Shown here: positions 36,615 to 50,925 of the stretch, piece after piece
Layout of the letters: every line of letters begins with the position of its first letter
Position numbering within the stretch: the first letter of the stretch is position 1
NCBI RefSeq assembly: GCF_011388195.1
Contig: NZ_CP049990.1
Coordinates: forward strand, 3,100,001 to 3,164,000
Length of the DNA stretch: 64,000 bases
Reading direction: 5' to 3'
From: Pusillimonas sp. DMV24BSW_D
GTDB taxonomy: Bacteria > Pseudomonadota > Gammaproteobacteria > Burkholderiales > Burkholderiaceae_B
Program-made: the position numbers and the translations under genes
Notes under the pieces: generated by a model
Databases searched by the model: none
Told to the model about the DNA's origin: nothing
The model's input: only the letters and a program-made list of their open reading frames with translations

Positions 36615-36680
36615 CAGTAAACCGTGTCTCTTGTGCTTATTCTGATCAGGCGACACTATACAAGAAGAAATAACGAGACA

Positions 36681-39455
36681 ATGAAAAATACCAATAAGCG
36701 GCGCATACCCACGACATTTGCAGCGCTACTCACCCTCATCTCCCTATCAGCAGGCGCGGAGAACTTCGACACGCCGGAATATCGGCAACAGTACGGCCTG
36801 GCCATGATCAACGCCGCACAGGCCTACCAACAAGGGTTCACCGGCCAAGGGGTTCGCGTGGGCGTCATGGACTCAGGCATATTCAGCCTACATCCGGAAT
36901 TCCAGGGGCGTATCGGCGGTGGCTGGGACATCTACAACAACAGGGCGATTACGCAAGACTGGGGCATTGATCTGGAAGGGCACGGTACCCATGTGTCCGG
37001 CATTATTGCCGCCAACCGCAACGGTATCGGCATGCACGGCGTTGCATTTAATTCGCAAATCGTCATGATCCGCAGTGATGACGACGGAGAAGAAGAAACG
37101 GAAGAAAGCTACGAGCAAGAAGATATTGCTTTTGCGCGCGGATGGAATCGGGCGGCCACATTTAACTTACCCATACTGAACGCCAGCCTTGGTTACAACG
37201 GCTGCGACCCGGGTGACAGCGGCTCACTGGCGGAACCATGCAATATCCTGGACTACGGTAACGCCGAGAATATCGAAGAACGGTATCCCCGATCCCTTGA
37301 GGGTCTGCGCGCATTAACCCGCGGCGACACCCTGATGGTGATCTCCACCGGCAACGAACAACAACCCAGCCCGGATATGCTGGCAGGCCTGCCCCATTAC
37401 TTCGACGAATTTGAAGACAATTGGGTTGCTGTTGCAGCACTTGGGGAAGATGGCCAACTGGCGGGCTATTCGAACCTGTGCGGCGTCGCTGCACAGTGGT
37501 GTATTTCCGCCCCCGGCGGCGATTGGGACGAAACACGCGGCATCTATTCAACCAAAACCGGCGGTGGCTACGTGCGCATGTCGGGCACGTCGATGGCGGC
37601 ACCTCATGTTGCGGGTGCCGCTGCTTTGGTAAAGGAGGCATTCCCATTCTTCAAGGCCTACCATTTGCAACAAACGCTTTTGACTACGGCAACTGATATT
37701 GGCGTCACGGGGGTCGACAGCACCTACGGTTGGGGCGCGCTGAATGTCGGCAAAGCCGTAAAAGGCCCAGGCGCCTTTACCGATGATTTCGCCGTCGACA
37801 CGCTGGGATACAACGCGACTTTCTCAAACGATATTGGCGGCAACGGCAAACTCATCAAGCTTGGTCAGGGCTCGATAACCCTTACCGGAACCAACAGCTA
37901 CCAGGGCGGCACGGATATTGTTGGCGGCAAGGTCATCATGAACGGTGTCCAAACCTCAACCACCACCGTTCGATCAGGCGGCACACTGGGCGGCACCGGC
38001 ACGATTCAAGACGTCCAAAACTATGGGGTGGTGGCGCCGGGTAACTCTATTGGCACGTTGAATGTATTTGGTGACTACACAGCCTACCCAGGCTCACGCC
38101 TGGAAATCGAAGTGAATGAAAACAACGCCACCGATGTTCTGCAAGTTACAGGCAACGTTCAACTGGATGGCACGCTGGCACTTGCAGGCGGACCCTTCCG
38201 GCAAGGCGTCGACTACAACTTCCTGGCCGTTAACGGCGGAACGGTCAGTGGAACCTTCGCAGATATTGATACCGACCTCGTGTTTCTTTCACCCAGCTTA
38301 CGCATTAACAACAGCGGCGCCATTTTGGATGTCCAACGCAATGGCGTTGCGTTTTCACGCTACCTGACAACGTCCAACCAGATTTCGGTCGCCAATGCGT
38401 TAGACACACTCTCAAGCAGTCCGCCGGCTGCCATGAGCGCGATTTTTGACGATTTGCTGAATTCAACACAAACCTCGATCGGGGGCATTGCTGACTCACT
38501 TTCCGGAGAGGGCCATGCCAGTGTGCAAAGCGCCCTATTGCAAGCCGCTTATCAAAGAACCAACCGGTTATCTGAGCGGATAGGCGGGGCGCTGGATCTT
38601 GCCGCCTCGTCTTCCACCTACCCGCTATGGGTCACTTTCGACAACCAATGGCAATCGATGAACGGGCGCAACGGCGCCGCTGACACCCGCTACCGTAATC
38701 ATGGGTTTACCTTGGGCGGCGATTTTTCAATTGGATCGGACTGGCGCGCAGGCCTTGCACTGGGTTACAGCGATGGTCGAGTGGAAACCGACGCGCGCCA
38801 AACAAGTACCGACGCCGACAATTACGCCGTATCCCTATATTCCGGCAAAAGCTGGCGCAACGGGAACAGCAGGCTGAATCTGCTATTGGGGGCGAGCCTT
38901 TCGCGTCACAATCTTGATGCACAGCGCACGGTTAGCACAGGCGGAGCGCAAACGCTTACGACCAATTACCACGGTTATGGCCGGCAAATGTTTGCTGAAC
39001 TCGGTTACGCGTTTCAGGTTAGCCCGGCGGGCATGCTTGAGCCCTACGCATCCGTGGCATGGTCATCGTTAAAAACGCGCGGCTTTACCGAATCGGGCGG
39101 CGCTGCGGCACTGACGGCCGAAAGCCGCACCGATAACGTGGGAACCCTGACGCTTGGCCTTCGTGGTTTGACTCATGTATCCATTGCCAAAAAAGAAGCG
39201 CGCTTGCGCGCTGGAATCGGATGGCGCTATGCCGCCGGCGACCTGACACCGACACGCCGTATGCAGTTCGTTGCAGCACCCACGGCAACATACACCGTTG
39301 AAGGCACCGCGCTGGCACGCAATGCCCTGGTCATGGAGTTAGGGGCCGAGGTCGATCTGGGGCGTTACAGCACCCTGGGTTTGGCGTATAACGGCCAATT
39401 CGGCGACGGCACGTCTGACAACGCAGGCTCCGTCAACTTGCGCATCAGGTTCTAG
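36681..39455 (+). CDS. Subtilisin-like (S8) serine protease autotransporter
   Basis: A 924-residue type V-secreted protease; the start at 36681 gives a proper signal peptide ending near S-A-G-A. The S8 domain (about 30-375) has all three catalytic residues: Asp64 in V-M-D-S-G, His101 in G-H-G-T-H-V and Ser304 in S-G-T-S-M-A-A-P-H. An acidic run (D-D-D-G-E-E-E-T-E-E) lies between His and Ser. A beta-helical linker with a PATR-type repeat (S-I-T-L-T-G-T-N-S-Y) follows at about 390-560. The C-terminal barrel (about 650-924) ends in R-I-R-F. This resembles SphB1-type maturation proteases of Bordetella. It carries its own translocator and does not depend on the TpsB protein at 12-13.8 kb. Confidence 0.93.
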   Translation: MKNTNKRRIPTTFAALLTLISLSAGAENFDTPEYRQQYGLAMINAAQAYQQGFTGQGVRVGVMDSGIFSLHPEFQGRIGGGWDIYNNRAITQDWGIDLEGHGTHVSGIIAANRNGIGMHGVAFNSQIVMIRSDDDGEEETEESYEQEDIAFARGWNRAATFNLPILNASLGYNGCDPGDSGSLAEPCNILDYGNAENIEERYPRSLEGLRALTRGDTLMVISTGNEQQPSPDMLAGLPHYFDEFEDNWVAVAALGEDGQLAGYSNLCGVAAQWCISAPGGDWDETRGIYSTKTGGGYVRMSGTSMAAPHVAGAAALVKEAFPFFKAYHLQQTLLTTATDIGVTGVDSTYGWGALNVGKAVKGPGAFTDDFAVDTLGYNATFSNDIGGNGKLIKLGQGSITLTGTNSYQGGTDIVGGKVIMNGVQTSTTTVRSGGTLGGTGTIQDVQNYGVVAPGNSIGTLNVFGDYTAYPGSRLEIEVNENNATDVLQVTGNVQLDGTLALAGGPFRQGVDYNFLAVNGGTVSGTFADIDTDLVFLSPSLRINNSGAILDVQRNGVAFSRYLTTSNQISVANALDTLSSSPPAAMSAIFDDLLNSTQTSIGGIADSLSGEGHASVQSALLQAAYQRTNRLSERIGGALDLAASSSTYPLWVTFDNQWQSMNGRNGAADTRYRNHGFTLGGDFSIGSDWRAGLALGYSDGRVETDARQTSTDADNYAVSLYSGKSWRNGNSRLNLLLGASLSRHNLDAQRTVSTGGAQTLTTNYHGYGRQMFAELGYAFQVSPAGMLEPYASVAWSSLKTRGFTESGGAAALTAESRTDNVGTLTLGLRGLTHVSIAKKEARLRAGIGWRYAAGDLTPTRRMQFVAAPTATYTVEGTALARNALVMELGAEVDLGRYSTLGLAYNGQFGDGTSDNAGSVNLRIRF

Positions 39456-39475: not shown

Positions 39476-40363
39476 TCACTCGTAATTGAACTGCCGAACC
39501 AGCGTCAGAAACGCATGCAAAATCGGCGAAGTGTCATCACGCCGATACATGCAGCTTAGCTCGATGTCTTTCAGCGTGTTTGAACGCAACGGCCTGTACA
39601 CCACGTTAGGCAAATTCAGGGTTTGAGCCGACTGCGTTGTAATACATACCCCAAAACCGCTTGCCACCATAGCAATACACGTCACGATGTCATCGGTTGC
39701 CTGCTCTACCTTGAATTTCAAACCCTCAGCTCGAAACGCGGCAGCAATCTCTTCGCCCAACCCGTGCATCGGTGCATTCGGATAGACCACCAAGGGCTCG
39801 TTATCGAGATCGGCCAATGTAATATAGGCCCGATCGCATAAAGGGTGCCCCTTGTACAAGCCCACCAAAAAGGGTTCGCGCAAGACAATCTCTACCGCAA
39901 GGTCGTCTTCGTCGGGCACCAGGCGATTAAACCCGATGGTAATGCGTCGGTCACGCAACGCCTCCAACTGTTGGGCTTTCGTCATGTTGTACAGCGCCAC
40001 TTTAACCTTGGGCCGACGTTGGCGAAACTCGCTTAGAATCCGCGGAATCGCGTTCAACACGCCTGAGCTAAAAAACGCGACATCAAGACGCCCGATATAA
40101 CCCTGTTCCGCCAATTGCGCCCGCTCTTCGGCACGACGGCTCAACGCCAATACATTCGGCACCTCTTCAAGCAACGCCCGACCGGCTTCGGTGAGTTCGG
40201 CGCCTTTGGGCGTGCGCGTAAAAAGCGTGACGCCAAGGTCGTCTTCCAAGGCCTTGATATGCCGGGTAAGAGGCGGCTGCGTAATATGTAGTTTGGCTGC
40301 CGCCCGCCCGAAGTTTTGCTCCTGCGCCAACATTAAAAAGTAGCGCATCTGCTTTAGGTCCAT
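39476..40363 (-). CDS. LysR-family regulator, CatR/BenM-like, of the ring-cleavage operon
   Basis: A 295-residue LysR protein. The N-terminus M-D-L-K-Q-M-R-Y-F and the helix-turn-helix Q-N-F-G-R-A-A-A-K-L-H-I-T-Q-P-P-L are those of the CatR/BenM/CbnR branch, which respond to muconate-type ring-cleavage products. The effector-binding domain spans about 90-295. It is divergent from the intradiol dioxygenase gene, and a perfect ATAC-N7-GTAT site lies between them, as in cat and ben systems. It is therefore the likely activator of the whole dioxygenase-to-aldolase operon, perhaps with 2-hydroxymuconate as effector. Confidence 0.9.
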   Translation of the reverse strand: MDLKQMRYFLMLAQEQNFGRAAAKLHITQPPLTRHIKALEDDLGVTLFTRTPKGAELTEAGRALLEEVPNVLALSRRAEERAQLAEQGYIGRLDVAFFSSGVLNAIPRILSEFRQRRPKVKVALYNMTKAQQLEALRDRRITIGFNRLVPDEDDLAVEIVLREPFLVGLYKGHPLCDRAYITLADLDNEPLVVYPNAPMHGLGEEIAAAFRAEGLKFKVEQATDDIVTCIAMVASGFGVCITTQSAQTLNLPNVVYRPLRSNTLKDIELSCMYRRDDTSPILHAFLTLVRQFNYE

Positions 40364-40398: not shown

Positions 40399-40413
40399 AT
40401 ACCGAAACGGTAT
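40399..40413. promoter_or_regulatory. CatM/BenM-type LysR operator
   Basis: ATACCGAAACGGTAT is a perfect dyad of the form ATAC-N7-GTAT, the consensus of the CatM/BenM primary site (a T-N11-A element). It lies 36 bases upstream of the LysR start and about 97 bases upstream of the dioxygenase ATG. Confidence 0.75.
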
Positions 40414-40509
40414 CGAATTTTGATAATTTAGTATTGGACGATATGACGCATTCAATGCGAATATTAGAAGTTGGCCTACTTGACATTTATACGCTGTTCC
40501 CCGCGCGCC

Positions 40510-41454
40510 ATGATTATTAAAGACCAAAACGACGTTACCCAAGCCGTATTAGCGGAAATTTCCCGTGCGCCCAACCCGCGTTTCAGGGAAATCATGTCGT
40601 CCGCGGTTCAACACTTGCATGATTTTGCCCGCGACGCACAACTGACCGAAGCTGAGTTTCACCAAATGTGCCAGTACATTGCGCGCTTGGGGCAGCTTAC
40701 GACGCCGTCGCACAACGAAGTGGTGCTGGCATGTGGCTCGCTAGGCTTGTCGTCGCTGGTTTGTCTGTTGAACAACGGCAGTAACGGGCAAACCGAAACA
40801 ACCGCCAATTTAATGGGCCCGTTCTGGCGACTCAACTCGCCGGCCACGGAAAACGGCGGCTCCATTGTGCGCTCGCCTACGCCGGGCGACCCCATTTTCG
40901 TGGAGGCCTGGGTGAAAGACAAGAGCGGAAAGCCGGTTCGCGGTGCCAAAGTCGACGTCTGGCACACCTCTGCCGATGGTTTCTACGAAAACCAGGACCC
41001 CGAACAAGCGGAAATGAATCTGCGCGGCCAATTTACAACCGACGAAAATGGTTATATTGCTTTTCGCAGTGTGAAACCAGCCGGCTACCCCGTTCCTGTC
41101 TCGGGGCCGGTGGGTGAACTGCTTAAAGCGCAAGGGCGCCACAACATGCGCCCCGCACATATTCACTTTATGGTGTTTAAAGAAGGCTATAAAACCCAGT
41201 TTTCGCAAGTTTACTCAAGCGATGACCCCAATATCGAGACCGACGCCCAGTTCGGCGTAACCCAGGCACTTCTTGGAGAATACGTCAAACACAATGGGAA
41301 CGCCCCCAGCGCCGATATCACCGGCACGTGGTATTCACTGCAATGCGAATTTGTCATTGAGCCGGGTGAGGCAAAATTACCCAAACCGCCTATTACGGAA
41401 AAAACCAATGCGCCTCGACCCGACCGGGTCGTACTTGACCGCGTACCCGATTAA
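40510..41454 (+). CDS. Intradiol ring-cleavage dioxygenase (catechol/hydroxyquinol/pyrogallol 1,2-dioxygenase type)
   Basis: A 314-residue Fe(III) enzyme; ATG 40510 is preferred to a TTG 39 bases upstream. An N-terminal helical dimerisation domain (about 1-95) precedes the beta-sandwich catalytic domain. The four iron ligands are visible: Tyr159 in D-G-F-Y-E, Tyr193 in A-G-Y-P-V, and His217 and His219 in P-A-H-I-H-F. The G-P-F-W entrance segment is nearer to hydroxyquinol than to catechol dioxygenases. It is followed by lower meta-pathway genes, so its product should be 2-hydroxymuconate or similar; pyrogallol-type substrates fit best (inference). Regulation is by the divergent CatR/BenM-like protein. 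Confidence 0.92.
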   Translation: MIIKDQNDVTQAVLAEISRAPNPRFREIMSSAVQHLHDFARDAQLTEAEFHQMCQYIARLGQLTTPSHNEVVLACGSLGLSSLVCLLNNGSNGQTETTANLMGPFWRLNSPATENGGSIVRSPTPGDPIFVEAWVKDKSGKPVRGAKVDVWHTSADGFYENQDPEQAEMNLRGQFTTDENGYIAFRSVKPAGYPVPVSGPVGELLKAQGRHNMRPAHIHFMVFKEGYKTQFSQVYSSDDPNIETDAQFGVTQALLGEYVKHNGNAPSADITGTWYSLQCEFVIEPGEAKLPKPPITEKTNAPRPDRVVLDRVPD

Positions 41455-41496
41455 ACTATTTTTTATCTATTTACGTTTATCTGAAAGGACTCTTGG

Positions 41497-42303
41497 ATGA
41501 CGCCTGATCAAATTAAAACCGCCGCTGCCGCATTGCGCCAGGCTGCCGAAACCGGCCAAGCCATTGGCGCCTTGCGCAACGACTACCCGGAACTCACCAT
41601 TGAATCGGCTTACGCCATTCAGCAAATCAATACCGAACACCGGCTTAAACAAGGGCGGCGCCGCATTGGCTGCAAAATCGGCCTCACCTCACCCGCCGTT
41701 CAAAAGCAACTGGGGGTCGACCAACCCGACTTCGGCATGCTGTTCGACGATATGGGTTACGGCGACGGCGAACCGATTCCTTTTTCAGCATTGATGCAGC
41801 CCAAAGTCGAAGCAGAAATTGCTTTCGTGCTGAAGAAAGATCTCGACATGCCCAACCCGACACAAGTTGATGTCATGCAAGCCATCGATTACGCCTTGCC
41901 CGCCATTGAAATTGTAGGCAGCCGCATTGCCAATTGGGACATTCGCATTACCGACACTATTGCCGACAATGCTTCTTCGTCAACTTACGTACTGGGCACC
42001 ACTCCACGCCAACTGAGCGAATTCGACGTGCGTCTGTGCGGCATGGCCATGATGAAAAACGGCGAACCGGTATCAGTCGGCGCCGGCGCCGCCTGCCTGG
42101 GCAATCCAATTAATGCGGTTGTATGGCTCGCCCGAACGCTTTCCCGGCTGGGCACGCCGCTGCAGGCAGGCGAACTTGTTTTATCCGGCGCGCTAGGCCC
42201 CATGGCCCCAGTCAATCCGGGCGAAATTTTTGAAGCCAGAATTAATGGCCTGGGTAATGTCCGGGCAGTTTTTGAGCCAGACACTACGAAGGAAGACAAA
42301 TGA
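41497..42303 (+). CDS. dmpE: 2-hydroxypenta-2,4-dienoate (2-oxopent-4-enoate) hydratase
   Basis: A 268-residue member of the FAH-related hydratase/decarboxylase family (DmpE, XylJ, MhpD). It adds water to 2-hydroxypentadienoate to give 4-hydroxy-2-oxovalerate. The metal-site E-x-E is in K-V-E-A-E-I-A-F, and A-D-N-A-S-S-S near residue 160 is shared by the family. The gene follows the dioxygenase by 42 bases (AAAGGA ribosome-binding site) and overlaps the decarboxylase start by ATGA. DmpE and DmpH form a complex in the known systems, which the coupling fits. It is assigned as hydratase because the next gene matches the decarboxylase better, but the two paralogues could be swapped. Confidence 0.85.
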   Translation: MTPDQIKTAAAALRQAAETGQAIGALRNDYPELTIESAYAIQQINTEHRLKQGRRRIGCKIGLTSPAVQKQLGVDQPDFGMLFDDMGYGDGEPIPFSALMQPKVEAEIAFVLKKDLDMPNPTQVDVMQAIDYALPAIEIVGSRIANWDIRITDTIADNASSSTYVLGTTPRQLSEFDVRLCGMAMMKNGEPVSVGAGAACLGNPINAVVWLARTLSRLGTPLQAGELVLSGALGPMAPVNPGEIFEARINGLGNVRAVFEPDTTKEDK

Positions 42304-43067
42304 AGTCCATAGCTGAATACGCAGAACTTCTAGACGAAGCCGCGCGACTGGGCAACGAAGTGCCCCAGTTCGACACCGAAAACAAGCTCTCGCTGGAAGA
42401 CGCCTACGCCATCCAGAAAGCCTCGATCGACCGTCGCCTTAGCCGAGGCCAGCGTCGTGTGGGTGTAAAAATGGGCTTCACCAGCCGCGCGAAAATGATC
42501 CAAATGGGCCTTTCCGATGTTATTTGGGGCCGTTTAACCGACGCCATGCAAGTAGAGGAAGGCGGCAGCATTGAATTGAAGGGCTATGTACACCCACGCG
42601 CGGAGCCTGAACTGGCCTTTTTGCTTAAGCGCCCCCTGGCAGGCGACGTCACCGGGCCGGAAGCCATGGCGGCAGTCGAGGCGATTGCACCGGCCATTGA
42701 AATTATTGACTCGCGCTACAAAGATTTCAAATTCACGTTACCCGAAGTGATTGCCGACAACGCCTCCTCCAGCAGTTTTGTCATCGGTGCCTGGCACGAC
42801 CCCAGAACTGATTTCAGCAACCTGGGTCTAACCTTAAGTATGAATGGCAAAACCGTTCAAGTAGGTTCAACCGCCGCGCTGCTGGGCAACCCGTTAAGGT
42901 CGCTGGTCGCCGCTGCGCGGGTTTCGGCGCAAGCGGGAGAACCGCTGCAAGCCGGCTGGATCGTTATGGCGGGCGGCGCAACACCGGCAGAATGGATCAA
43001 GCCGGGGCAATACGTTTCGGTTCAAATGGAAGGATTAGGTGAGTGCGGGTTCCACGCCAAAGACTAA
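42300..43067 (+). CDS. dmpH: 4-oxalocrotonate (2-oxo-3-hexenedioate) decarboxylase
   Basis: A 255-residue paralogue of the preceding hydratase (DmpH/XylI type). It decarboxylates 2-oxohex-3-enedioate, the keto form of 2-hydroxymuconate, to 2-hydroxypentadienoate. The metal ligands are in R-A-E-P-E-L-A-F, and K-M-G-F-T-S-R and A-D-N-A-S-S-S are conserved. Its start overlaps the hydratase stop. No 4-oxalocrotonate tautomerase or 2-hydroxymuconic semialdehyde dehydrogenase gene lies in the operon; the substrate would come directly from the intradiol dioxygenase. Confidence 0.87.
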   Translation: MKSIAEYAELLDEAARLGNEVPQFDTENKLSLEDAYAIQKASIDRRLSRGQRRVGVKMGFTSRAKMIQMGLSDVIWGRLTDAMQVEEGGSIELKGYVHPRAEPELAFLLKRPLAGDVTGPEAMAAVEAIAPAIEIIDSRYKDFKFTLPEVIADNASSSSFVIGAWHDPRTDFSNLGLTLSMNGKTVQVGSTAALLGNPLRSLVAAARVSAQAGEPLQAGWIVMAGGATPAEWIKPGQYVSVQMEGLGECGFHAKD

Positions 43068-43145
43068 TGCACCCCACCCTTGCCGGAGCGACACAACGCC
43101 GCACCGGCCCTTGACTCGTTTTTATGACTCCTGCAGGAGCACACA

Positions 43146-44105
43146 ATGACACAGAAAGTAAAAGCCGCCATTATTGGTTCAGGCAATATCGGCACCGACC
43201 TCATGATCAAAGTCATGCGCAACAGCAAAACCCTTGAAATGGGTGCCATGGTAGGGATCGACCCCAAATCCGACGGCCTGGCCCGCGCTGAGCGCATGGG
43301 TGTAGCCACGACCGCAGAAGGCATCGACGGCCTGGTGAAAATGGATGTTTTCAAGGAAATCGATGTGGTGTTCGACGCCACATCGGCTGGCGCCCACGCA
43401 CATCATAACGAGGTACTGCAAAAACACGGTGTGCAGGTTATCGACCTAACCCCGGCCGCCATTGGCCCGTTCGTTATTCCTGCGTTGAACCTGGAAGCGG
43501 AGAACGCCACCAACATGAACATGGTCACGTGCGGTGGCCAGGCCACCATTCCCATTGTGGGAGCCGTGTCGCAAGTGGCCAAAGTGCACTATGCGGAAAT
43601 CGTCGCCTCGATTTCCAGCAAATCGGCCGGGCCGGGTACCCGTGCCAACATCGATGAGTTTACCGAAACCACGCGCGACGCCATCGAAAAACTGGGCGGT
43701 GCCGAACGGGGCAAGGCCATTATTATTCTGAACCCGGCCGAACCGCCGCTGATTATGCGCGACACCGTGTTCGTCCTGTCGGAGCCCGCCGACCAGAAAA
43801 AAGTGGAAGAAAGCATCGAAAGAATGGTAGCCAAGGTGCAGTCGTACGTACCGGGCTATCGCCTGAAGCAGAAAGTGCAGTTCGACGTCATCGATGAATC
43901 GGCCCCCATGAACGTACCGGGCATCGGCCCACGCCACGGTCTGAAAATTGCCGTCTACCTGGAAGTGGAAGGGGCGGCACATTATCTGCCCGCCTATGCC
44001 GGCAACCTCGATATCATGACTTCCGCCGCGCTGGCTTGCGGCGACATGATGGCGCGCCGTCGCCTTGAGGCAGGCATGTCAAGAACACAAAAGGAAGTGG
44101 TGTAA
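43146..44105 (+). CDS. dmpF: Acetaldehyde dehydrogenase (acylating)
   Basis: A 319-residue enzyme (DmpF/MhpF/XylQ family) that converts acetaldehyde, NAD+ and CoA to acetyl-CoA. The NAD site [10 protein letters not shown] is at about 9-18 and the catalytic Cys129 lies in M-V-T-C-G-G-Q-A. Length is normal for the family. It forms a channelling complex with the aldolase encoded immediately downstream; the two genes share one base (TAATG). GCAGGAG precedes the ATG. Confidence 0.96.
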
Positions 44106-45142
44106 TGGATACGCAAAAGAAACTCTATATCTCCGACGTAACCCTGCGTGACGGCAGCCATGCGATTCGGCATCAATACAGTGTCGATAACGTTCGCGCC
44201 ATTGCCAAGGCACTTGATGAAGCCGGGGTGTACAGCATTGAAGTGGCGCACGGCGACGGCCTGGAAGGCTCCAGCTTCAACTACGGCTTTGGGGCACACA
44301 GCGATGTGGAATGGATTACGGCGGCCGCCGAATCGGTTACCAACACCAAAATTGCCACCCTGCTGCTGCCGGGTATCGGCACCATGCACGACCTGCGCCG
44401 CGCCTACGATGCAGGCGCACGCGTAGTCCGTGTTGCCACACATTGCACGGAAGCCGATGTGTCCCGTCAACATATCGACTATGCCAATGAACTGGGTATG
44501 GACGCAGTGGGCTTCCTGATGATGAGCCACATGATTCAACCGGCCCGGTTGGCCGAGCAAGCCAAGCTTATGGAAAGCTACGGCGCCAGTTGCATTTATG
44601 TGGTCGACTCAGGCGGTGCGCTCACCATGAACGACGTGCGCGACCGTTTCCGTGCGCTGAAAGACGTTCTAAAGCCCGAAACCGAAACCGGTATTCACGC
44701 CCACCACAACCTTAGCCTGGGTGTGGCGAATTCCATCGTAGCGGTGGAAGAAGGTTGTGATCGCATCGACGCCAGCCTGGCGGGTATGGGTGCCGGTGCG
44801 GGCAATGCGCCGTTGGAGGTCTTCATTGCCGCAGCCGAACGGCTGGGCTGGAATCACGGTTGCGACCTTTACAAGCTTATGGACGCGGCCGACGACCTGG
44901 TGCGGCCGCTGCAAGACCGCCCGGTTCGGGTCGACCGCGAAACGCTTGCGCTCGGGTACGCCGGGGTTTATTCCAGCTTCCTGCGCCATGCGGAAGCAGC
45001 TGCCGCCAAATACAACCTGAAAACGGTGGATATCCTGGTTGAACTGGGCCGACGCAAAATGGTGGGCGGCCAGGAAGACATGATTGTCGACGTAGCACTT
45101 GACCTACTTGCAAGCCAGGAACAAATGAGCAACAATCAATAA
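44105..45142 (+). CDS. dmpG: 4-hydroxy-2-oxovalerate aldolase
   Basis: A 345-residue class II aldolase of the HMGL-like TIM-barrel family (DmpG/MhpE/XylK). It splits 4-hydroxy-2-oxovalerate to pyruvate and acetaldehyde, the latter passed to DmpF. The active-site segment T-L-R-D-G-S-H holds Arg15, metal ligand Asp16 and catalytic His19; the other metal ligands are His198 and His200 in I-H-A-H-H-N. These match DmpG with a two-residue offset. It is the last enzyme of the operon, and a terminator-like hairpin follows. Confidence 0.96.
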
Positions 45143-45214: not shown

Positions 45215-45271
45215 AGGTGGGCATGCCTTAACGGTATTAGACTCATAACCAAAATTCTCAGGAGACGACTA

Positions 45272-46444
45272 ATGAGAAAATTCGCCAAAATTGCGCTTGC
45301 AGCGGCGTGCTTTGCTTCTGCTGCCGTTGCTCACGCGGCCGAACCGTTCAAAATCGGGTTCATTATCCCCATGACGGGGCCTTTTGCCTCCACCGGTAAA
45401 CAAGCTGTTGCCGGCGCCAAGCTTTACATGCAACAACATGGTGACGAAGTGGCAGGGCGCAAAATCGAACTCATCATTAAAGACGACGGCGGCGTTCAAC
45501 CTGAAACAACGAAGCGTATCGCTCAAGAACTGGTTGTTCAGGACAAGGTAAATGTGCTGGCCGGCTTTGGCCTCACACCGCTGGCATTTGCCGCTGCACC
45601 CATTGCCACCCAGGCTAAAGTTCCCATGGTGGTCACGGCAGCCGGCACCTCATCAATTGTTCAGAAGTCGCCCTACATCGTGCGTACCTCCATGACACTG
45701 CCGCAAACAACTGCGCCTATCGCAGCCTGGGCACGTGACAACAAAGACGTCAAAATCGATACCGCTGTTACGCTGGTAGCCGACTACGGCCCAGGTCACG
45801 ACGCTGAAAAAGTCTTCGTGAAAACCTTTACGGAAAAAGGCGGGAAAGTGCTGGAAAGCATCCGCAGCCCCATGGCAAACCCCGACTTTTCGGCGTTCCT
45901 TCAGCGCGTTCGCGACTTGAAACCCGATGCACTTTTCGTGTTCGTTCCCTCGGGCCAAGGTACCGCTGTATTGAAGCAGTTCAAGGAACGTAATCTTGCT
46001 GCAGAAGGTATCAATCTGATCGGTACCGGCGACATGGTGGAAGACGACTTGATGCCTTCCATGGGCGACGAAGTGCTGGGTATTATCACTTCCCACCATT
46101 ACTCTGCCGCTCACGATTCCGAAACAAACAAGGAATTTGTAAAAGCGTTCGCCGAGGCCAACGACGGGATGCGCGCCAGCTTCATGGGTGTAGGGGCCTA
46201 CGACGGCATGCACCTCATTTACGAAGCGTTGAAGAAAGCCGGTCCAGATGCAACGGGCGACGAACTTCTGGCCGCTATGAAAGGAATGGAATGGGAAAGC
46301 CCTCGTGGCCCGATCCGTATCGATCCTGAAACACGCGACATCGTTCAGAACATCTACATTCGTGAAGCCAAGAAACTGGATAACGGAGAACGTTATAACG
46401 TTGAATTCGACGTCGTGGAAATGTTCAAAGACCCAGGCGTTTAA
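45272..46444 (+). CDS. Periplasmic ABC substrate-binding protein, LivK-like
   Basis: A 390-residue type I periplasmic-binding protein; the start at 45272 follows AGGAGA and gives a signal peptide ending A-V-A-H-A-A. The mature protein begins E-P-F-K-I-G-F-I-I-P-M-T-G-P-F, typical of branched-chain amino-acid or aromatic-acid receptors (Peripla_BP_6). No permease or ATPase genes (LivHMGF) are adjacent. Its place behind the ring-cleavage operon suggests that it captures an aromatic acid for that pathway using transporter subunits encoded elsewhere. A strong terminator follows. Confidence 0.9.
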   Translation: MRKFAKIALAAACFASAAVAHAAEPFKIGFIIPMTGPFASTGKQAVAGAKLYMQQHGDEVAGRKIELIIKDDGGVQPETTKRIAQELVVQDKVNVLAGFGLTPLAFAAAPIATQAKVPMVVTAAGTSSIVQKSPYIVRTSMTLPQTTAPIAAWARDNKDVKIDTAVTLVADYGPGHDAEKVFVKTFTEKGGKVLESIRSPMANPDFSAFLQRVRDLKPDALFVFVPSGQGTAVLKQFKERNLAAEGINLIGTGDMVEDDLMPSMGDEVLGIITSHHYSAAHDSETNKEFVKAFAEANDGMRASFMGVGAYDGMHLIYEALKKAGPDATGDELLAAMKGMEWESPRGPIRIDPETRDIVQNIYIREAKKLDNGERYNVEFDVVEMFKDPGV

Positions 46445-49473: not shown

Positions 49474-50925
49474 ATGTCAACTATTTCGATGCTTATTAAC
49501 GGGCAACAAAAGCAAGCCAGCAATGGTAAAACTTTCCAGCGAAAGAACCCGCTTGACGGCAAAGTCGCAACCACCGCCCCGGCCGCAACCGTCGAAGACG
49601 CCATCGAAGCTGTTGAAGCCGCCTCCCGGGCTTTCCCCGAATGGGCCGCGAAAGGCCCGACAGAGCGCCGTGGCCTGCTGTTGAAAGCAGCTGATGCCCT
49701 TGACGCAAAAACCGACGACTTTATCAAAGCCATGGCCGGCGAAACCGGTTCGGCCGCCATGTGGGCCGGCTTCAATGCGCACCTGGCAGCCAATATGCTT
49801 CGCGAAGCCGCATCGCTTACCACACAAATAAACGGCGACCTCATCCCATCCGATGTTCCCGGCAGCCTGGCTATGGGTGTTCGGCAGCCTGCAGGCGTGG
49901 TGCTGGGCATGGCGCCCTGGAATGCACCCATCATCCTGGGCACCCGAGCCGTTGCCGTGCCCCTGGCCTGCGGCAATACCGTTGTAATGAAGGGGTCGGA
50001 AGTGTGTCCGGCCACCCACAGCCTGATTATCGAATCACTTCAGGAAGCCGGCTTACCTAACGGGGTAGTGAATTTCATTACCAACGACCCAGCCGATGCC
50101 GGTCCCATTGTTGAGGCCATGATCGCCCACCCCGCCGTTCGGCGCGTCAATTTTACCGGCTCCACACGGGTTGGCAGAATCATCGCCTCGGTTTGCGCGA
50201 AATACCTGAAACCCTCTATTTTGGAATTGGGCGGCAAAGCGCCGCTGGTCGTTCTCGACGATGCAAATATCGAAGAAGCCGTTAACGGAACCGCTTTTGG
50301 CGCATTCGCAAATTCCGGCCAAATCTGCATGTCAACGGAACGCATTATTGTCGACAATAAAATCGCCGACGCGTTTATTCCCGCGCTCACCGAAAAGGCG
50401 CGCAACTTGCCGCTGGGTGATCCGCGCGAAGGCCCGGTTGTCCTGGGTTCGGTGGTCGACATGTCGACGGTTGAACGTTGCAATGCGCTCATCGACGACG
50501 CGCTGGAAAAAGGCGCCAAGCTACTTTGCGGCGGCAAGGCTGAAAACACCTTAATGCCCGCCACCCTCATCGACCACGTCACGCCGAAAATGAAAATCTA
50601 CAGCGAGGAAACCTTTGCGCCGGTAAAGGCCATTGTCCGTGTTAACGGGGTTGAAGAAGCAATTCAAGTCGCGAATGACAACGACTACGGCCTGTCTGCC
50701 GCGGTATTCGGAAAAGATATCGGGCGGGCGTGGCAAGTTGCTTCGCGTATTGAATCAGGCATTTGCCATATTAATGGGCCCACAGTTCACGATGAGGCAC
50801 AAATGCCGTTTGGCGGCGTAAAAGACAGTGGTTTCGGCCGCTTCGGTGGGCGTGCCGGCATTGAGGCCTTCACAGAATTGCGCTGGATGTCGATTCAAAC
50901 TACCCCCCGTCATTATCCGTTCTAA
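49474..50925 (+). CDS. Aldehyde dehydrogenase, salicylaldehyde/vanillin dehydrogenase-like
   Basis: A 483-residue NAD(P)-dependent aldehyde dehydrogenase. The catalytic features are N-A-P near residue 150, the E-L-G-G-K-A-P-L motif with the general-base Glu at about 252, and the nucleophile Cys in S-G-Q-I-C-M-S-T-E at about 286. The sequence is nearer to aromatic aldehyde dehydrogenases (salicylaldehyde, vanillin, benzaldehyde) than to betaine-aldehyde types, which fits the neighbouring aromatic catabolic operon. It stands alone and ends in a strong terminator. It is not the typical 2-hydroxymuconic semialdehyde dehydrogenase, but that activity cannot be excluded. Confidence 0.88.
   Translation: MSTISMLINGQQKQASNGKTFQRKNPLDGKVATTAPAATVEDAIEAVEAASRAFPEWAAKGPTERRGLLLKAADALDAKTDDFIKAMAGETGSAAMWAGFNAHLAANMLREAASLTTQINGDLIPSDVPGSLAMGVRQPAGVVLGMAPWNAPIILGTRAVAVPLACGNTVVMKGSEVCPATHSLIIESLQEAGLPNGVVNFITNDPADAGPIVEAMIAHPAVRRVNFTGSTRVGRIIASVCAKYLKPSILELGGKAPLVVLDDANIEEAVNGTAFGAFANSGQICMSTERIIVDNKIADAFIPALTEKARNLPLGDPREGPVVLGSVVDMSTVERCNALIDDALEKGAKLLCGGKAENTLMPATLIDHVTPKMKIYSEETFAPVKAIVRVNGVEEAIQVANDNDYGLSAAVFGKDIGRAWQVASRIESGICHINGPTVHDEAQMPFGGVKDSGFGRFGGRAGIEAFTELRWMSIQTTPRHYPF

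Follow-up and report, generated by a model that had tools for sequence, protein, structure and literature searches.

Pyrogallol (1,2,3-trihydroxybenzene) is a triple phenol derived from plants and lignin. A pyrogallol 1,2-oxygenase that converts it to 2-hydroxymuconate, and onwards to pyruvate and acetaldehyde, was reportedly described by Groseclose and Ribbons in 1981 in the resorcinol pathway of Azotobacter vinelandii. Pyrogallol 1,2-dioxygenase, EC 1.13.11.35, is listed in Table 5 of a 2007 survey as a validated orphan without a sequence and is ranked 'difficult' (PMC1940265). In the yeast Blastobotrys, the catechol 1,2-dioxygenase Acdo1p also accepts pyrogallol, as assayed through the product 2-hydroxymuconic acid, but is 33-fold more efficient on catechol (kcat/KM 3950 vs 119 per mM per s); this acid may isomerize spontaneously to oxalocrotonate, and that study does not identify the enzyme of the next step (PMC9204233). 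A catechol 1,2-dioxygenase of Rhodococcus opacus, assayed on 3-methylcatechol, is described as 'also known as pyrogallol dioxygenase' (PMC10620931), which means that a bacterial sequence of the catechol type already carries this name. The yeast route has been reviewed (PMC10512348), and a fungal pyrogallol dioxygenase is mentioned without a gene in the available text of another report (PMC6769594). A 2019 paper on syringol conversion calls for a dioxygenase able to turn pyrogallol into a usable ring-cleavage product, with 2-hydroxymuconate and the meta pathway as the goal (PMC6628648), and a 2025 paper presents the same step as something to find or engineer (PMC12455638). The present analysis concerns a five-gene operon in a stretch of 64,000 nucleotides, hereafter the window, from Pusillimonas sp. 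DMV24BSW_D (contig NZ_CP049990.1, positions 3,100,001 to 3,164,000). The operon is headed by an intradiol Fe(III) dioxygenase (IDO) that is a strong candidate for a dedicated bacterial pyrogallol 1,2-dioxygenase. Among the titles and abstracts listed in searches of the open-licence PMC literature, none describes this operon or a bacterial gene set for the conversion of pyrogallol to 2-hydroxymuconate.

Gene identities in the window are based on the layout of open reading frames (ORFs) and on Pfam and NCBIfam profile scans of the encoded proteins. Coordinates and profiles confirm the gene run of the original prediction: the IDO gene is followed by genes for a hydratase, a 4-oxalocrotonate decarboxylase-like protein, an acylating acetaldehyde dehydrogenase (AcDH), and a 4-hydroxy-2-oxovalerate aldolase. 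The five genes share the + strand with spacings of 42, -4, 78, and -1 bp in order, and the hydratase lies barely above the NCBIfam cut-off for 2-keto-4-pentenoate hydratase (354.2 vs 350 bits). The window ORFs and profile scans reveal no extradiol dioxygenase, 2-hydroxymuconic semialdehyde (HMS) dehydrogenase, or tautomerase gene in the operon, which is thus not a complete meta-cleavage operon. The operon is probably a catabolic module in which the IDO cleaves a C3-oxygenated catechol, most likely pyrogallol, to 2-hydroxymuconate for conversion to pyruvate and acetyl-CoA. The IDO would open pyrogallol between two hydroxylated carbons, and the resulting 2-hydroxymuconate would ketonize to 2-oxo-3-hexenedioate, either spontaneously or via a tautomerase. 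This intermediate would be decarboxylated, hydrated, and then split to pyruvate and acetaldehyde, with the acetaldehyde passed to acetyl-CoA by the partner dehydrogenase. Gene order, protein families, iron ligands, clade membership, the tautomerase-like gene of the relatives, and the linked LysR gene and box can be read directly from the sequences, whereas the substrate, the product, and the decarboxylating activity of the decarboxylase-like protein are predicted from sequence and gene context.

The IDO matches the intradiol dioxygenase domain models PF00775 (134.0 bits) and PF04444 (75.3 bits). The iron ligands Tyr159, Tyr193, His217, and His219, exactly as originally named, align with Y164, Y197, H221, and H223 of the hydroxyquinol 1,2-dioxygenase structure 1tmx. 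In a tree of 60 rows, the branch that sets apart the clade of the IDO (36 rows) has a support of 100/99, and the hydroxyquinol-type group (13 rows) has a support of 93/88. Gly76 and Gln247 are present in all 36 rows of the IDO clade, and all 13 hydroxyquinol-type rows harbor Asp83 and Val251 (1tmx chain-sequence numbering). Since nine of these 13 rows were assigned by similarity, only the two solved structures (1tmx and 3n9t) and the two rows beside a maleylacetate reductase or reductase-like gene (L052 and L059) are independent.

Related loci were collected from three sources. One scan with short exact peptides of the window IDO gave 29 loci, of which 27 fall inside the clade and two (L049 and L050) outside. 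Among plasmid records, 409 matched, 30 were listed, and 11 were fetched, comprising one window-type operon, nine loci with HpaH and HpaI genes, and one with neither. A search of 399 genomes of the order with the IDO gave 13 matches at E<=1e-60, five of them, including the window's own genome, at an identity of at least 60%. Genes in the fetched loci were called with a home-made composition score, by which genes can be missed. The order IDO-hydratase-decarboxylase is kept in 12 other loci (11 of the 29 peptide-scan loci and Caballeronia sp. SBC1, L053), one from the window's own species and 11 from other genera, and is therefore not due to chance. Identity to the window proteins across these loci is 72-99% for the IDO, 70-99% for the hydratase, and 72-99% for the decarboxylase. 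The closest named genome found is Neopusillimonas maritima 17-4A (L022), which belongs to the window's own species and has a LysR regulator and five operon proteins that are 99-100% identical. Full-length AcDH and aldolase genes are present in 10 of the 12 loci; L032 has fragments of both and L053 has neither.

A 4-oxalocrotonate-tautomerase-like gene of 70-75 residues lies between the IDO and hydratase genes in 11 of the 12 loci, all but L022, and a second one lies ahead of the AcDH gene in three of them (L024, L026, and L031). Both scanned tautomerases of L024 pass PF01361 (38.3 and 52.2 bits; cut-off 22); in NCBIfam, the first is under all cut-offs and the second is over TIGR00013 (68.8 bits; cut-off 56.9). 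A tautomerase is expected for 2-hydroxymuconate, and hence its conservation in relatives supports this compound as the probable IDO product. Nine loci harbor the tautomerase, decarboxylase, hydratase, aldolase, and AcDH genes together (L023, L024, L025, L026, L028, L031, L033, L034, and L045). The window and L022 have all genes of the 2-hydroxymuconate branch except the tautomerase, and, within the set of loci seen, an operon without a tautomerase is confined to Neopusillimonas.

An operon that was the mere tail of an extradiol route would be expected to have an HMS dehydrogenase alongside. At E<=1e-150, no match to HMS dehydrogenase was found in five of 10 operon-bearing genomes, namely Burkholderia sp. 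Ac-20379 (L028), Paraburkholderia acidicola (L031), Caballeronia sordidicola (L032), Robbsia andropogonis (L033), and a Caballeronia metagenome-assembled genome (MAG; L045). Four genomes have a match over the cut-off (857-901 bits) and one has a 565-bit match below it. The clean cases are L028, L031, and L033, as the MAG may be incomplete and the AcDH and aldolase of L032 are fragmentary. The classic HMS route can thus not be the general source of substrate for the operon. The original prediction of a route with neither a dehydrogenase nor a tautomerase gene holds for the window operon, and across genomes its gene order recurs and HMS dehydrogenase is unmatched in half of the carriers, but the tautomerase is present in all 11 loci from other genera.

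A second lineage points in the same direction. The IDO gene is followed by genes for the hydratase HpaH and the aldolase HpaI in Noviherbaspirillum humi (L027) and in nine of the 11 fetched plasmid loci, all alphaproteobacterial (two Shinella, Bosea vestrisii, Methylobacterium nodulans, Sinorhizobium fredii, Rhizobium sp., R. tropici, Agrobacterium vitis, and Microvirga). The pair is divergent from the IDO gene in L040-L042, only the hydratase is seen in L043 and L044, and L037 has a hydratase alone. In this branch, the C6 diacid would be hydrated and then undergo aldol cleavage to pyruvate and malonate semialdehyde, an arrangement that also fits 2-hydroxymuconate as the product. The tautomerase-like gene in relatives, the HMS-free genomes, the HpaH/HpaI lineage, and the active-site signature thus all support 2-hydroxymuconate as the likely IDO product. 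In M. nodulans, two ORFs after HpaI (L054:10846-12255) match the CoA-acylating methylmalonate-semialdehyde dehydrogenase with 172.6 and 338.9 bits, the whole-protein cut-off being 448.5; this gene is absent from the PLSDB gene table. The two pieces have only 30-33% matches in the other 42 loci, on aldehyde dehydrogenases of L022 and L031.

A LysR-family regulator gene adjoins the IDO gene, or is one gene away (L028 and L034), in 11 of the 12 other operon loci, with an identity to the window's regulator of 99% in L022 and 52-70% in the other ten. The remaining locus, L045, begins inside the IDO gene and hence shows no LysR gene. The LysR-IDO gap of the window contains the palindrome ATACCGAAACGGTATC, a LysR-type box of the form T-N11-A, which recurs with variants in an alignment of nine such gaps (the window and eight of the 12 loci). 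Seven of the nine gaps also passed a more stringent test for palindromes. The exact box occurs once in the whole genome, and one-mismatch matches are few, equal in number to those of the reversed control pattern. The features of the operon and its surroundings are collected in the table.

Table. Positions of the operon genes, the regulatory box, and possible partner genes in the window.
Feature	Position	Strand	Basis or remark
LysR-family regulator	39476..40363	-	profile scans; divergent from operon
palindrome ATACCGAAACGGTATC (T-N11-A, LysR-type box)	40399..40414		LysR-IDO gap
intradiol Fe(III) dioxygenase (IDO), candidate pyrogallol 1,2-dioxygenase	40510..41454	+	Dioxygenase_C and Dioxygenase_N, iron ligands, Gly76/Gln247
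2-oxopent-4-enoate (2-hydroxypenta-2,4-dienoate) hydratase, MhpD/DmpE type	41497..42303	+	NCBIfam, FAA_hydrolase
2-oxo-3-hexenedioate (4-oxalocrotonate) decarboxylase-like, DmpH type	42300..43067	+	best model below cut-off; FAA_hydrolase
acylating acetaldehyde dehydrogenase (AcDH), DmpF type	43146..44105	+	NCBIfam over cut-off; AcetDehyd-dimer
4-hydroxy-2-oxovalerate aldolase, DmpG type with communication domain	44105..45142	+	NCBIfam over cut-off; HMGL-like and DmpG_comm
periplasmic binding protein (Peripla_BP_6), possible uptake partner	45254..46444	+	66% orthologue after IDO-HpaH-HpaI in Noviherbaspirillum humi
aldehyde dehydrogenase, possible partner only	49474..50925	+	70% orthologue right after aldolase in Paraburkholderia acidicola (L031)

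The aldehyde dehydrogenase at the end of the table was considered as an HMS dehydrogenase and rejected (313.2 bits; cut-off 693.25). Upstream of the regulator, a large ORF (window 36624-39455) resembles a subtilase autotransporter by eye. Several of the related operons harbor a TIM barrel gene right behind the aldolase (L024:15761-16576 and orthologues); the L024 protein is weakly similar to the 3-dehydroshikimate dehydratase QuiC (37.6 bits), as well as to the structures of Lmo2234 and IolI. This query had no match in the window's genome, an empty answer that alone shows nothing. Paraburkholderia and rhizobia repeatedly encode, near the IDO gene, a short protein of the SBP_bac_3 type in which inspection by eye shows no obvious signal peptide (L024:10945-11685, L051:10476-11156, and L054:13702-14430).

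The genome of the window (3.19 Mb, single contig) contains further genes of relevance. A true HMS dehydrogenase is encoded at 2,800,300-2,801,742 (896.3 bits; cut-off 693.25), with an extradiol-like VOC gene and a gene for a class II aldolase-like protein as neighbors. The absence of extradiol, HMS dehydrogenase, and tautomerase genes in the original prediction therefore stands for the operon and is corrected for the genome, as tautomerases are also present elsewhere. The model PF01361 has matches at 89.6 kb and 1.749 Mb; the former scores 85.5 bits with NF002524 (cut-off 86) and 65.1 bits with TIGR00013 (cut-off 56.9), and the stretch around the latter genes (L075) has no match to the operon queries. 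The surroundings of the 89.6 kb tautomerase (G000:C1:82001-98000, L074) encode a LigB-like dioxygenase, a 3-hydroxyanthranilate-dioxygenase-like protein, a 4-oxalocrotonate-tautomerase-like protein and, by eye, isochorismatase-like proteins and a TRAP transporter; a binding protein of this cluster is 51% identical to the periplasmic binding protein of the window. A second aldolase (84% identical to that of the window), AcDH (64%), and hydratase (50%) are encoded at 269-275 kb, in a region (G000:C1:264001-280000, L076) where inspection by eye alone suggests genes for a ring-hydroxylating oxygenase and for a dihydrodiol dehydrogenase. Overall, the observation behind the original prediction is confirmed and its interpretation partly supported, with the assignment of pyrogallol as the probable substrate well supported by comparison.

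The most serious alternative, although unlikely, is that the lower genes of the operon serve the HMS-dehydrogenase cluster at 2.80 Mb, the IDO being a neighbor or a second input to 2-hydroxymuconate. In the 20 kb surrounding that HMS dehydrogenase, the operon queries detected none of the Dmp-type lower genes (hydratase, decarboxylase, AcDH, and aldolase). The window decarboxylase is the only close one in the genome, as a whole-genome search with it returned itself, the window hydratase (37%), a hydratase-like gene at 274 kb (34%), and a marginal match at 665 kb (E 5.5e-4). Given the genomic HMS dehydrogenase and the single close decarboxylase, 2-hydroxymuconate may reach this enzyme by two routes. 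Orthologues of the VOC (61-63%) and class II (51-53%) genes lie directly before the IDO gene in five loci (L040-L044, Limnohabitans and MAGs), which ties the extradiol-like and IDO routes together there. However, the lack of an HMS dehydrogenase match at E<=1e-150 in five of the 10 operon-bearing genomes argues against this alternative, as does the position of the IDO gene, which heads the operon and is preceded by a linked LysR gene with its box. The original prediction named as contrary evidence a set of extradiol and HMS-dehydrogenase genes elsewhere in the genome that is co-regulated with the operon. The 2.80 Mb cluster is a set with such genes, but no one-mismatch match of the unique box lies near it in a genome search that covers this mode of co-regulation only. 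The cluster (G000:C1:2799342-2804319, L073:6342-11319) also contains an alpha/beta hydrolase and, by eye, a GntR-like regulator. By analogy, it perhaps represents a 2,3-dihydroxybenzoate-type route.

It is quite improbable that the substrate of the IDO is another catechol with a hydrolyzable group at C3, such as 3-methoxycatechol or 3-aminocatechol, or gallate in the HpaH/HpaI lineages. The former two would give a 2-hydroxymuconate ester or ether and 2-aminomuconate, respectively. An alpha/beta hydrolase gene is found inside the L034 operon, the shikimate-type genes beside the IDO in other loci could supply gallate, and HpaI-type aldolases could accept the carboxylated analogue. However, a search of the remaining 42 loci gave no relative of the L034 hydrolase at E<=1e-10, and no deaminase was recognized in the operons, for which no search was made and in which not every neighbor is annotated. 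In addition, the presence of AcDH with its partner aldolase implies acetaldehyde, and hence an unsubstituted C6 diacid.

It is very unlikely that the IDO is a hydroxyquinol (or catechol) 1,2-dioxygenase whose product goes elsewhere. To our knowledge, the enzymes encoded further down the operon use neither muconate nor maleylacetate. Its best sequence match among solved structures is PnpC (3n9t), the next four include three hydroxyquinol-type enzymes with 1tmx among them, and intradiol enzymes can be promiscuous, as seen in yeast (PMC9204233). The hydroxyquinol assignment was nevertheless rejected because Asp83 and Val251 are replaced throughout the clade and the operon lacks a maleylacetate reductase gene. 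A maleylacetate-reductase-like query had its sole match among the 43 fetched loci in L052, within a separate hydroxyquinol-type gene set. The catechol 1,2-dioxygenase CatA was rejected on score (TIGR02439, 141.1 bits; cut-off 392). The other PF00775 places in the genome are a protocatechuate-dioxygenase-like pair and three hydroxyquinol-type genes. One of the three has as its neighbor a reductase-like gene at 118 kb that shares 54% identity with an annotated maleylacetate reductase, and another lies beside an amidohydrolase (Amidohydro_2; no NCBIfam match), which is read as a resorcylate decarboxylase.

Cleavage of pyrogallol to 2-hydroxymuconate remains the preferred reading, and several observations weigh against it. 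The decarboxylase-like protein has dmpH (TIGR03218) as the best among four family models matched and scores under its curated cut-off (216.1 bits; cut-off 350.55). No known pyrogallol-producing enzyme is encoded within the window. The HMS-dehydrogenase and extradiol-like VOC cluster lacks Dmp-type lower genes, and the window decarboxylase may serve that route too. Gly76 and Gln247 may be specificity residues, which depends on positions 83 and 251 of 1tmx lining the active site and deciding specificity, as we take them to do. In nine of the 27 clade loci, no lower-pathway gene is nearby (L029, L030, L035, L036, L038, L039, L046, L047, and L048), with an 82-residue hydratase match in L038. Four other genomes of the order with an IDO match of at least 60% (G002, G052, G097, and G137) show no Dmp-type gene in the stretches covered, one of which is only 3.7 kb. 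A decarboxylase-like protein of at least 59% identity was found in only three of the 20 genomes or records behind the loci that were searched, namely the known carriers L053 (77%) and L034 (73%) as well as L039, where the match (59%) does not lie by the IDO; 16 others gave matches of at most 41% and one gave none at E<=1e-20. On a Bosea vaviloviae plasmid (L083:7001-13462), the genes behind a clade IDO encode an SDR and then a 3-keto-5-aminohexanoate-cleavage-type protein. This gene run continues with an alcohol dehydrogenase and a cupin and includes no HpaH/HpaI or Dmp genes. Because of the loci without lower genes, the scarcity of the decarboxylase, and the neighbors in B. vaviloviae, one product for the whole clade is not certain, and the IDO clade may have more than one outlet.

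The genes around the IDO in other loci provide clues to the supply of its substrate. In N. humi, a gene that ends 38 bp upstream of the IDO encodes a protein with close similarity to 5-carboxyvanillate decarboxylases of solved structure (421 bits), and a relative of 2-pyrone-4,6-dicarboxylate hydrolase adjoins the IDO in L028 and lies across the LysR gene in L026; these are possible supply and repair enzymes. The neighbors in further loci include an inositol-dehydrogenase-like Gfo/Idh/MocA protein, AroQ (a type II dehydroquinase), a protein resembling shikimate dehydrogenase, and a TIM barrel that is weakly similar to 3-dehydroshikimate dehydratase. The order Gfo-AroQ-AroE-IDO is found in L056 (15-3312), and AroE, Gfo, and AroQ precede the IDO in L036 (7495-10945). 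In the Shinella, S. fredii, and Rhizobium loci, Gfo, AroQ, carboxymethyl-hydroxymuconate-isomerase-like, AroE-like, and TIM barrel genes lie near the IDO (e.g. L051:408-11156 and L085:1-10161). The recurrent Gfo/Idh/MocA, AroQ, and AroE-like neighbors suggest that the aromatic substrate derives from an alicyclic compound resembling quinate, shikimate, or a cyclitol. A speculative and on balance doubtful extension is that the IDO clade represents the missing pyrogallol 1,2-dioxygenase family within an undescribed regulon that makes pyrogallol from alicyclic plant polyols and is finished by DmpHEFG or HpaH/HpaI. A deoxy-inositol (quercitol) might give pyrogallol by one oxidation and two dehydrations, in analogy to the formation of protocatechuate from quinate; alternatively, dehydroshikimate might be oxidized to gallate and decarboxylated.

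If the proposed function is correct, the operon may give genes to the long-described, sequence-less activity EC 1.13.11.35, and it offers candidates for the conversion of pyrogallol to 2-hydroxymuconate that is wanted in syringol conversion (PMC6628648). Orthologues in named Paraburkholderia, Burkholderia, Caballeronia, and rhizobial strains are open to direct assay. The operon also places an intradiol enzyme at the entry of the lower half of a meta pathway without an HMS dehydrogenase.

Among the known systems, Acdo1p shares with the proposed IDO the conversion of pyrogallol to 2-hydroxymuconic acid, which makes the chemistry feasible, but is primarily a catechol enzyme (PMC9204233). The R. 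opacus enzyme, as described in the available text, is likewise a bacterial intradiol dioxygenase; it is not tied to a 2-hydroxymuconate operon and is likened to the IDO by name only (PMC10620931). The hydroxyquinol 1,2-dioxygenases (1tmx and PnpC 3n9t) have the same fold family, N-terminal domain, and four iron ligands as the IDO, which differs in its separate clade, in the replacement of Asp83 by Gly and of Val251 by Gln, and in its association with genes for 2-hydroxymuconate rather than maleylacetate. The lower half of the dmp/xyl meta pathway resembles the operon in its DmpH-, DmpE-, DmpF-, and DmpG-type steps and, in the relatives, in the 4-oxalocrotonate tautomerase. In contrast with dmp/xyl, the operon has an intradiol entry and no extradiol dioxygenase or HMS dehydrogenase, and the window operon also lacks the tautomerase. 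The hydratase and pyruvate aldolase of the homoprotocatechuate pathway, HpaH and HpaI, recur behind the IDO in N. humi and the nine alphaproteobacterial loci, where they would take a diacid one carbon shorter; this putative branch is not that of the window. The pyrogallol 1,2-oxygenase reportedly present in A. vinelandii is a close counterpart in function, with the same reaction as proposed for the IDO and the same onward route to pyruvate and acetaldehyde.

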